Part shown: positions 5,082 through 37,834 of the stretch, piece by piece | How positions within the stretch are numbered: the first letter of the stretch is position 1 | Layout of the letters: each line of letters begins with the position of its first letter | Source: a bacterium | Lineage (GTDB): Bacteria > Patescibacteriota > Andersenbacteria > UBA10190 > CAIZMI01 | Direction of reading: 5' to 3' | Assembly (NCBI GenBank): GCA_030647555.1 | Contig: JAUSJG010000015.1 | Location: 1-40,998 of the forward strand | Length of the DNA: 40,998 nucleotides | The notes under the pieces: generated by a model | What the model saw: the letters and a program-made list of their open reading frames with translations, nothing else | What the model was told of the DNA's origin: nothing | The model's database searches: none | Made by a program: the position numbers and the translations under genes

Positions 5082-5120
5082 TATCCGATTTTGTAACTAC
5101 TCACCGGTTTGAAAGTTCGT

Positions 5121-5207
5121 CTTTGCGAGCCCTTTCAAGGGCGAAGCAATCTTAGCGCATTTTGTTTCTCGCGGGAGATTGCTTCGGCGTTGAAACGCCT
5201 CGCAATA
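5121..5207. repeat. CTTTGCGAG...GAAGCAATC interspersed inverted repeat, copy 1
   Basis: CTTTGCGAGC, a small hairpin (CCCTTTCAAGGG), CGAAGCAATCT, a ~25-base centre, then the inverted AGATTGCTTCG and GCCTCGCAAT. This interspersed repeat type is widespread in bacterial genomes. The canonical right end is cut at about 5207, where the IS110 element appears to begin. A second copy is at 40775-40858. Confidence 0.75.
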
Positions 5208-5256
5208 CCCGTTAAAGGAACGTGTCAAATAGTTTCTTTTTTTCAAGGTAATAATT

Positions 5257-6276
5257 TTAGTTTGCAGTTGCATAAAAAGTACGTGAAGGATCGAAGGTTG
5301 TTTTTTGCGAAATCACAACATACATGATGCGAACAATTTTTCTGGCAATAATCACCAATGCTTCGACATGGTTTCTGTTTTCTTGCTCCCGCAGATAATC
5401 ATAATATGCGCGAAAATCGTTATTGTTCATTGTCGCTCCCCAGGCCGCGTTATACAGTCTGCGCCGTAAGAAATTATTGCCACGCTTAGTTAACTTGCAC
5501 TGACCTTTCCATGTACCGCTTTCTCGCGATGAAACATCTAATCCGGCATAACCGATCCATGACTTAGCCGAAGGATAATCCGCAGAAAAGAAGTGTGTCG
5601 CCAATGTGGCCGCGAATACAGAGACACCTGGAATGGAAACAAGGTTCTTGATGTTTTCTGATTGTTCTTTGTTTCCTTTGACTTCCCGTACCACTTCGTT
5701 TTCCATTTTATTAATTTTCTTTTCGATGTTTGTTACCGCTTCAAGTAATTGTCTTTCGTTTTCGGTAAGCGGAGACTTTAAGTTATCTTTCGCTTCTGTG
5801 AAGCTGTCGATGATCGCTTGCATGGATTGCAAGGTGTGACTTAATGAGCCAATACAAGCCAATTTCTTGCGCAGAACAAGTTCATCACCGGTCATACAAA
5901 AGGGTTTTGGTAAGTGTTCTTCAAGTAGTGCAACATTAGCTAATACCTTCGCGTCCGCTTTGTCTGTCTTGACCTTCCTGATACAAGATTGGGTATACTT
6001 TTTAGCAAGGAGTGGATTAATCACGCGGACATCCAAATTGTTTTTTGAAAGAATAAGTGCAATCAACCAGTGGTAATGTCCGGTGGACTCCATTACAATC
6101 TTTCCTTGATAACCCACCAATTGTTTTGCTAGTTTCTTGATGCCTGTTTCGGTGTTGCTAAACTTAAGCGCTTTTGAGAATCCTTCCCGGAATTTCAAAC
6201 AGATGCTCATTGAAGCTTTAGCAACATCGATACCGACGGCGAGAATATCCTTTGTTTGTTTTTCTTTGTTACTCAT
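5257..6276 (-). CDS. IS110-family transposase (complete)
   Basis: A 339-residue DEDD recombinase. N-terminal RuvC-like domain: Asp17 in AVGIDVAKAS, Glu63 in VMESTGHYHW, Asp105 and Asp108 in KTDKADAK. A helical linker runs about 130-205. The C-terminal Transposase_20 domain is about 210-330, with IPGVSVFAATL, GYAGLDVSSRESG (candidate catalytic Ser253 before Gly) and KLTKRGNNFLRRRLYNAA. All expected catalytic positions are present and the length is typical, so it may be active. The start ATG is not preceded by a Shine-Dalgarno. The 290-base leader upstream probably encodes its guide RNA. It separates the murA block from the methyltransferase gene. Confidence 0.93.
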   Translation of the reverse strand: MSNKEKQTKDILAVGIDVAKASMSICLKFREGFSKALKFSNTETGIKKLAKQLVGYQGKIVMESTGHYHWLIALILSKNNLDVRVINPLLAKKYTQSCIRKVKTDKADAKVLANVALLEEHLPKPFCMTGDELVLRKKLACIGSLSHTLQSMQAIIDSFTEAKDNLKSPLTENERQLLEAVTNIEKKINKMENEVVREVKGNKEQSENIKNLVSIPGVSVFAATLATHFFSADYPSAKSWIGYAGLDVSSRESGTWKGQCKLTKRGNNFLRRRLYNAAWGATMNNNDFRAYYDYLREQENRNHVEALVIIARKIVRIMYVVISQKTTFDPSRTFYATAN

Positions 6277-6299
6277 ACTTTTGTATGTTTAAGATTAAG

Positions 6300-6484
6300 A
6301 TGCAGAAAAGTATTTTCATTTGTCCCTGTCATATTGGTTAAAGTGGCTAATTGCCATACCCGATAACGGAGATGCAAACGAACATTCTGCTGAAAACAGG
6401 AAGAGAAAATGGCATTGCGCGTGGCTTAAAAGCCATAGACGGCCTCGTTTTCTTCTTCCTGTTTTCAGCATAACAAAAACGACT
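6300..6484 (-). ncRNA. Candidate IS110 bridge RNA
   Basis: Minus-strand transcript inferred in the leader of the IS110 element. A TATAAT box (6490-6495) would start it near 6484. It contains a long hairpin: 17 perfect pairs (TGCTGAAAACAGGAAGA at 6389-6405 with its complement at 6455-6471), then GAAAA/TTTTC after a 2-base bulge. Inside is a second hairpin TGGCTT-AA-AAGCCA (6422-6435). Further on, 6353-6369 (GCCATACCCGATAACGG) matches the right junction at 5202-5218 at 14 of 17 positions, as expected for a guide loop. IS110 leaders are known to encode bridge RNAs of about 180 nt. RNA ends are estimates. Confidence 0.55.
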
Positions 6485-6489
6485 AACGG

Positions 6490-6495
6490 ATTATA
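6490..6495 (-). promoter_or_regulatory. -10 box for the IS110 leader RNA
   Basis: TATAAT on the minus strand, in AAGTATAATCC, about 60 bases inside the left end of the element and 214 bases before the transposase start. No strong -35 is seen. Confidence 0.45.
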
Positions 6496-6568
6496 CTTAC
6501 CCTTTATAAGACGGCGTTTTTCGAATTACTTTCAGGCAAGTGAGGAGTTACCCGATTTTTACCTGTTT

Positions 6569-36403: not shown

Positions 36404-36460
36404 TGGACACAAAAACCCTGCCTGCAACATCCTTGTGTTTAGTATCCTGTTGTCCAAGCA

Positions 36461-36536
36461 ACCGTTCACGGAGCGGAGCAACCTCTTTGTCCCCCGTAGC
36501 ATTGTGCGAAGGGAGATGCTCCGCTCCGTGAACGGT
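36461..36536. repeat. 20-bp inverted repeat enclosing a CCCCCGTAGC unit
   Basis: ACCGTTCACGGAGCGGAGCA (36461-36480) and its perfect complement at 36517-36536. The loop contains CCCCCGTAGC...GCGAAGGGAG, related to the hairpin at 12181-12206. It lies between the glycerate kinase stop and the mntA promoter. Confidence 0.8.
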
Positions 36537-36547
36537 GCAGGATTAAA

Positions 36548-37834
36548 TTATTTTTTTAACACCAAAAACAAATCTGATATGTTGATGTTCATTAGACCCG
36601 TATAAACCTGGCTGCCGGTTTTTTTAGTAAATTCGAAGGAGTTGTTTTCGGCTAAATATTTTTTCGTATCCAGTCGCAATTTCTTTGCTTTTAATACGAC
36701 TTCCGTATCGGTCAACGCTCCAGCGGCAGCAGAATTGTCGTGACCGTCGGACGCAACCGAAAGCAAAACTGTATTAACTGGAATTTTTTCTAAAGCCCCC
36801 ATGGCCACTTCATAGTTTCTACCTCCATGGCCACGTCCTGTTATATGAACCGTCGTCTCTCCGGCAGCAATTAAAGCTTCGCCGCGCTTCACGCTTTTTA
36901 CCAGCATTTCCCCCACTTCACGTGCTTCCCCGGACAGCGCGGTCGATAAGACCCGCGGTTTAAATCCCGCTTTTCGCGCCGCTTCTACCATCGCTCGCAC
37001 CGCCACAACATTGTTTACAACTAAAACATTCTGGACTTTCTTAAACAATCCTGTGTCGTTTGGCGTCTCTACTAAATCACCGGCAACGATTTTGCACGTC
37101 TTCGCCACCCCATACTTTATTAAAATACGTTTTGCGTCTTTCGCTGTCGTAGAGTCTAACACCGTCGGGCCCGACGCAATCATCCCAATATCATCACCGG
37201 GCACATCGGAAAAAATCAGCCCAACAATTGTTGCGGAATGCGCCATTTTCACCAGTTGCCCACCCTGCAATGCCGACAAATGTTTTCTGACAGTATTCAT
37301 TTCCTTAATCGTTGCTCCGGCGCGCATCAGGTTTTTTGTCACACAAACAAAGTTTTCTAGTCGAATACTGTACGGCCAGAAAAGCAGCGCCGAGCCCCCA
37401 CCCGAAACAATCGTAATCACCAGATCTTTCGGACCCGTTTGTTTAAGCAGAGCGACAATTTCCGCCGTCGCTTTTAAATTTCTAGCACTTGGAAAAGGGT
37501 GAGTTCCGGCAATACTTTTGATATGTTGCAGTTTGGCACTGCACACATCGATCACCACGCCCCCCGTGATGCGTTTGCTCAGCATTTTTTCTAAAACTCG
37601 CGCTGTTTCTACCGATGCCTTACCGCATCCGATCACAAAAATTTTCTCGTAATTTTCCAAGTCGTAAACTTTCTTTCCCACCCGCAAATTACCTCCATTC
37701 ACAGCCACATGCCTCCGAATCGCCGTTTCCGTGCTTACCGCCGTCATTCCCGCTTCAAAAATATCCAAGGCAACGCGCCGCAAAGGCGTTGAGATAAGAG
37801 AGTTATAGTTACTAACTATGTGCTTAACAGACAT
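36548..37834 (-). CDS. Glycerate 2-kinase (GckA/TtuD type, DUF4147-MOFRL)
   Basis: A 428-residue enzyme phosphorylating glycerate to 2-phosphoglycerate. N-terminal DUF4147 domain: IFVIGCGKASVETARVLE (65-82), AGTHPFPSARNL, ITIVSGGGSALLFWP and NTVRKHLSALQGGQLVKMA, then FSDVPGDDIGMIASGPTVLD. The C-terminal MOFRL domain has AGETTVHITGRGHGGRNYEVAM and the active-site region VASDGHDNSAAAGALTD. The start is ATG 37834 (MSVKHIV); 13 more in-frame codons exist upstream but run into the promoter. A TATATT -10 box ends 6 bases before this ATG. The product could feed lower glycolysis. Confidence 0.93.
   Translation of the reverse strand: MSVKHIVSNYNSLISTPLRRVALDIFEAGMTAVSTETAIRRHVAVNGGNLRVGKKVYDLENYEKIFVIGCGKASVETARVLEKMLSKRITGGVVIDVCSAKLQHIKSIAGTHPFPSARNLKATAEIVALLKQTGPKDLVITIVSGGGSALLFWPYSIRLENFVCVTKNLMRAGATIKEMNTVRKHLSALQGGQLVKMAHSATIVGLIFSDVPGDDIGMIASGPTVLDSTTAKDAKRILIKYGVAKTCKIVAGDLVETPNDTGLFKKVQNVLVVNNVVAVRAMVEAARKAGFKPRVLSTALSGEAREVGEMLVKSVKRGEALIAAGETTVHITGRGHGGRNYEVAMGALEKIPVNTVLLSVASDGHDNSAAAGALTDTEVVLKAKKLRLDTKKYLAENNSFEFTKKTGSQVYTGLMNINISDLFLVLKK

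Follow-up and report, generated by a model that had tools for sequence, protein, structure and literature searches.

The leader upstream of a recombinase gene in the stretch of DNA analysed here (the window, 40,998 nucleotides) very probably encodes a bridge RNA, and the two together make up a complete 1.3-kb insertion sequence of the IS110 group, with the RNA in the left non-coding end, upstream of the gene, and with an activity that would be directed by this RNA (Table 1). An earlier note on the same DNA had read the leader in this way, and the reading held, being off only in the proposed left end and in the extent. The programmable-transposon type itself is already known, though a recent discovery, and the element is a well-supported further example of it; it adds a bridge-RNA element for which all guides, the ends and the empty sites are known, from a lineage for which none turned up in our search of papers on IS110 and the candidate phyla radiation.

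Table 1. Features of the insertion sequence and of its target repeat in the window; guide, handshake and promoter assignments are predictions.
Feature	Position	Strand	Remarks
IS110-group element	5207..6507	-	1301 bp between core dinucleotides (1303 bp with one core); two empty repeat copies, same ends in relatives
Recombinase	5257..6276	-	339 aa, intact frame; DEDD_Tnp_IS110 and Transposase_20 (Pfam)
Bridge RNA	6317..6474	-	~158 nt; target-binding hairpin, then donor-binding hairpin
Left target guide (LTG)	6437..6444	-	GGCCGTC + core base T; left flank CGCCGTC-T
Right target guide (RTG)	6414..6420	-	GCGCAAT; pairs with AT-TGCG(A), right junction
Handshake nucleotides, target loop	6412..6413	-	GC; would pair with GT of left donor, one wobble (scheme of PMC11208158)
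Left donor guide (LDG)	6356..6364	-	ATCGGGT-AT; right end AACGGGT-AT
Right donor guide (RDG)	6331..6343	-	CTTT(AACCA)ATAT; discontiguous pairing with left-end AT-ATAAAG
Handshake nucleotides, donor loop	6329..6330	-	GA; would pair with TC of left target (scheme of PMC11208158)
Left-end core	6508..6509	-	TT (target version); ends shared with relatives
Right-end core	5205..5206	-	AT (donor version)
-10 box, left end	6503..6508	-	TATAAA
-35 box	5223..5228	-	TTGACA; 17 bp from TATAAA after joining of ends
Left part of interrupted REP-like target repeat	6508..6553	.	left target GCCGTC at 6510-6515; 89-91% identity to C7/C30 copies
Right part of interrupted REP-like palindromic repeat	5100..5206	.	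right target TGCGAGG at 5198-5204; 95-96% identity to empty copies

The ends of the element were read from two empty sites. A DNA search of the host genome showed that in contigs C7 (~34.1 kb) and C30 (~11.8 kb) the right and left flanks directly adjoin each other, forming uninterrupted copies of a REP-like palindromic repeat that match the right flank over 100-106 bp (95-96% identical) and the left flank over 46-54 bp (89-91% identical). The empty copies read CCTCGCAAAGAC, and the window equivalent is CCTCGCAA[T...T]AAGAC. Since the flanks are joined in these copies, the element extends from 5207 to 6507, flanked by the cores 6508-6509 and 5205-5206; these boundaries put the leader, as the earlier note had assumed, within the element and upstream of the recombinase gene, as in the IS110 group. 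The motif TACCCG at 6550-6555, which had been taken for the left element end, belongs to the flanking repeat, some 40 bp beyond the element; its counterpart in the empty copies is TTACCCAC or TTACACG. Similarly, the span proposed for the RNA (6300-6552) overruns the element beyond its left-end core, the RNA itself corresponding to 6317-6474 of the minus strand. The right part of the repeat contains an inverted repeat (5123-5152/5176-5205). Two Y1_Tnp genes, of the REP-associated tyrosine transposase type, are present in the window's genome, G000 (L136, C5:33213-33572, 142 bits; L137, C7:120513-120791, 30 bits), and are a possible source of the REP-like target repeats.

In the recombinase, both PF01548 and PF02371 scored above cut-off, and D17, E63, D105, D108 and S253 fall in invariant alignment columns among the relatives. 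The nearest solved structures by sequence profile were those of IS621 (8wt6, E 8.5e-36) and ISCro4 (PDB 9t56, E 4.7e-36), the latter at low identity in a comparison of the proteins. The protein carries the sole IS110 N-terminal domain in the host genome, and the element is present there in a single copy, which we counted against our explanation. Another, different IS110 recombinase is represented by a C-terminal fragment at 27-236 of the plus strand, truncated by the contig start (36% identity over residues 259-329).

Scanning of a genome collection revealed four close relatives, with 38-49% identity over the aligned protein: L030 from an uncultured bin, L031 from a Paceibacterota bin, L032 from a Kaiserbacteria bin, and L033 from Thiomicrospira sp. 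ALE5. In searches of the window's phylum (380 genomes), we found in addition L105 (genome G245) and, through the RNA model, the elements of genome G049. The distinct elements found thus number only seven, which also counts against the explanation. Plasmid records contained no relative at E <= 1e-30, and viral contigs contained only distant IS110s without the leader or the target motifs. No more copies were found in Thiomicrospira's order (63 genomes) or in a 384-genome draw of the class of L031 at E <= 1e-40, a cut-off too strict for copies that are interrupted by a contig edge, as in G049.

The structure of the leader is conserved. A covariance model made from five relatives, with the window excluded, recovered it at 6317-6474 of the minus strand (99.7 bits, E 4.8e-20), in answer to the earlier concern that the leader might not be conserved between copies, and the RNA is present in all of L030, L031, L032, L033 and L105. 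The RNA comprises two stem-loops with internal guide loops, the target loop and then the donor loop; its minus-strand fold has z = -6.8, and the long hairpin with an internal hairpin noticed previously was found again, with arms at 6385-6409 and 6449-6473. Among seven sequences, 18 of 29 pairs changed on both sides, and 87.7% of cells were paired, compared with 42-55% when partners were slid by one to three columns, in an alignment that was fitted to the model and is biased towards it, the window and G049 lying outside that model. Rfam contained no family matching the leader at the gathering cut-off, the more distant IS110 relatives tested (Bacillota, viral contigs) did not match model R1, and a larger covariance model had no other match within the window. 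A weak model match at 36457-36589 of the plus strand (19.4 bits) disappeared with the larger model and is a plain hairpin, long and near-perfect, with arms of type ACCGTTCACGGAGCGGAGCA.

In IS621, the target loop precedes the donor loop, the bottom strand is read by the left guides and the top strand by the right guides, in both cases together with the core, and the right donor guide pairs discontiguously (PMC11208160), while the nucleotides following the right guides take part in handshake pairing (PMC11208158). In the window element, all four guides could be read at the positions that they have in IS621, and the two nucleotides after each right guide would, judging from the sequence, be the handshake nucleotides. 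The comparison of the guide loops with target and donor sequences thus gave an agreement that follows the published IS621 layout. The match between 6353-6369 and 5202-5218 pointed out in the earlier note is real (14 of 17 positions identical, same strand) and corresponds to the left donor guide. It was equalled by 1 of 5000 shuffled leaders against the fixed target, and by 4 of 300 against any 17-mer of the 71-nt junction region; at these rates, the match alone is moderately unlikely to be due to chance and suggestive, but not decisive. The joint ordered score of LTG, RTG and LDG, 19/22, was reached by none of 300 dinucleotide shuffles in the window element. The same test was weaker in relatives, where 39 (L030), 1 (L031) and 19 (L033) of 300 shuffles reached the score. 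When guides and DNA were permuted among five elements, own pairings scored 90.5, the mean of the permutations being 80.3, and 2 of 120 permutations equalled that score, small numbers all of them. For single guides, the permutations as good numbered 9 (LTG), 24 (RTG) and 6 (LDG) of 120, and the match of LTG to the left target without the core base was not significant (16% of permutations). Both the single-guide results and the modest left-guide match of L033 and L105 beyond GTC and the core base were counted against our explanation.

A long, stable hairpin immediately upstream of a transposase gene could also be a cis-regulatory structure of that gene, an attenuator or a translation-control hairpin, with guide matches that arose by chance or from shared repeat sequence. 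We consider this very improbable, because the guide loops track both target and ends across diverged elements, the joint guide score was reached by none of the 300 shuffles, a terminator-like site is absent, and the junction promoter described below would yield the leader as a separate RNA.

The -10 box that had been noticed in the leader is indeed there, as a -10-like TATAAA at 6503-6508 of the minus strand. Joining of the right end, the core AT and the left end gives TTGAC[AGT]-17-TATAAA in all five elements for which both ends are known, and we therefore predict, from the sequence of the joined ends, that a sigma-70 promoter forms across the circle junction. IS621 likewise rebuilds a sigma-70 promoter at its junction (PMC11208160, PMC11208158). 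A 6-bp subterminal inverted repeat, TAAAGG/CCTTTA, is conserved in the window element, L030, L031, L033 and G049. Such repeats are of 2-3 bp in typical IS110 elements and of 7-17 bp in IS1111 elements (PMC11208160), and one of 6 bp exceeds the length usual for the IS110 group, as if the element belonged to the IS1111 group and had its RNA in the downstream end. There is hardly any chance of that: an IS1111 element needs a long downstream end and a subterminal repeat of 7-17 bp, whereas the empty-site boundaries leave 231 non-coding nt upstream of the gene and only 50 nt downstream, which fits the layout of the IS110 group, and the left guide precedes the right guide, which is the IS110 order (PMC11187229).

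In the cycle that we propose, the element would excise as a circle, and its right and left ends, once joined, would form a core-spanning promoter, TTGACA-17-TATAAA. Transcription from this promoter would yield the bridge RNA, which the DEDD/serine recombinase would then bind. The first internal loop (GGCCGTC-T left, GCGCAAT right) would recognise the host REP-like repeat CGCCGTC-TT-TGCGAGG, and the second (ATCGGGT left, CTTT..ATAT right) the element's own ends, AACGGGT-AT-ATAAAG. Recombination would occur at the 2-nt core by top-strand cleavage 3' of the core, so that the left end would carry the TT of the target and the right end the AT of the donor.

Unequal cores, with TT on the left and AT on the right, were found in two elements, those of the window and L031. 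The left-guide core base is T in both of them, and A in the other four of the first six elements, which have AT left ends, as well as in the multicopy relative G049. The core is TT at each of the 19 exact GTCWTTGCGAGG sites of the window's genome; target sites in the L031 genome have mostly TT, and those in the L105 genome almost all AT. In the L032 genome the cores are mixed, mostly TT, yet the guide core base of the L032 element is A. In IS621, cleavage of the top strands takes place on the 3' side of the core, and either A or T is tolerated as the first base of the core (PMC11208158). After an exchange of top strands at this point, the left end would carry the target core and the right end the donor core, as observed, so that the unequal cores may be a record of an exchange of the IS621 type. 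This is only suggestive, since there are two cases and a chance outcome of mismatch repair or replication could look alike. A broader scenario, which we put forward tentatively and regard as rather doubtful, is that the clade, which extends over several small-genome lineages and Thiomicrospira, holds its donor core constant at AT, while the target guides, down to the base that reads the first position of the core, adapt to whichever palindromic repeat is common in the host. It would in this way work with unequal cores, and strand exchange would be favoured by a right target guide complementary to the core of the donor rather than to that of the target.

The same features could be taken as signs of decay, as if the element was a bridge-RNA element indeed, but an inactive remnant with a bridge RNA that no longer works. 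Besides the single copy, there is one mismatch between the right guide GCGCAAT and TGCGA, and the target core TT differs from the AT that the right guides complement. Nevertheless, the open frame is intact with all catalytic residues present, the ends, the junction promoter and the guides are intact as well, and the TT/AT pattern occurs independently in L031; a remnant is thus unlikely. As elements with unequal cores, the window element and L031 are natural candidates for testing the core tolerance of programmable recombinases.

The left ends read GTC-[AT]T-ATAAAGG in every element, one G049 copy excepted, and the right ends, where present, read GGGT, GGGC or AGGC, followed by AT and then by the target. 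In G049, several copies were found, at contig edges, and five right junctions among them read AT-TCC[CT] within a different palindromic repeat (e.g., TCCCGTGAAAACGGGA). The right guide of G049 is CGGGAAT, whereas in the other elements, with AT-TGCG sites, it is CGC[AG]AT; judged by these sequences, the right target guide of G049 is altered to match its different repeat. Moreover, the same G-to-A change relative to the window is seen in its donor end (AACAGGC) and in its left donor guide (TCCAGGA). The clade offers natural experiments: retargeting between two repeat families, and unequal cores as a possible record of strand order.

The element resembles IS621 of E. coli (IS110 group; PMC11208160, PMC11208158) in its recombinase with DEDD and a catalytic serine, in the bridge RNA in the left end with the target loop before the donor loop and the left guide before the right, in the discontiguous right donor pairing, in an NT core with invariant T, in a REP target, and in the junction sigma-70 promoter. 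It differs in being divergent in sequence, in its cores (AT in the donor and TT in the target, compared with CT in IS621), in having a different REP and the 6-bp subterminal inverted repeat, and in its Patescibacteria host. Both the targeting of REP sequences by IS110 elements (PMC1525189) and natural retargeting (PMC11187229) were described previously. The IS110-family elements ISPpu9, ISPpu10 and ISPa11 likewise have a fixed insertion position within REP sequences, but in Pseudomonas hosts and other REP families, and ISPpu9 and ISPpu10 produce 2-bp direct repeats (PMC1525189). The seekRNA of ISEc11 and ISXne4 has altered guides at altered targets, as does G049 relative to the window family, but these are of the IS1111 type, with the RNA downstream (PMC11187229).

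One G049 copy (L140, G049:C42) has the left flank ATAGGC-AT instead of TGTC-AT; this flank resembles the copy's own donor end AACAGGC, and the copy may have inserted into a donor-like site or beside another element. G049 also contains a second IS110-type element (L100 in C67, L101 in C124); in L100, the C-terminal end is followed by AACGGGT-CT-TGTAGG, a sequence which suggests a CT core.
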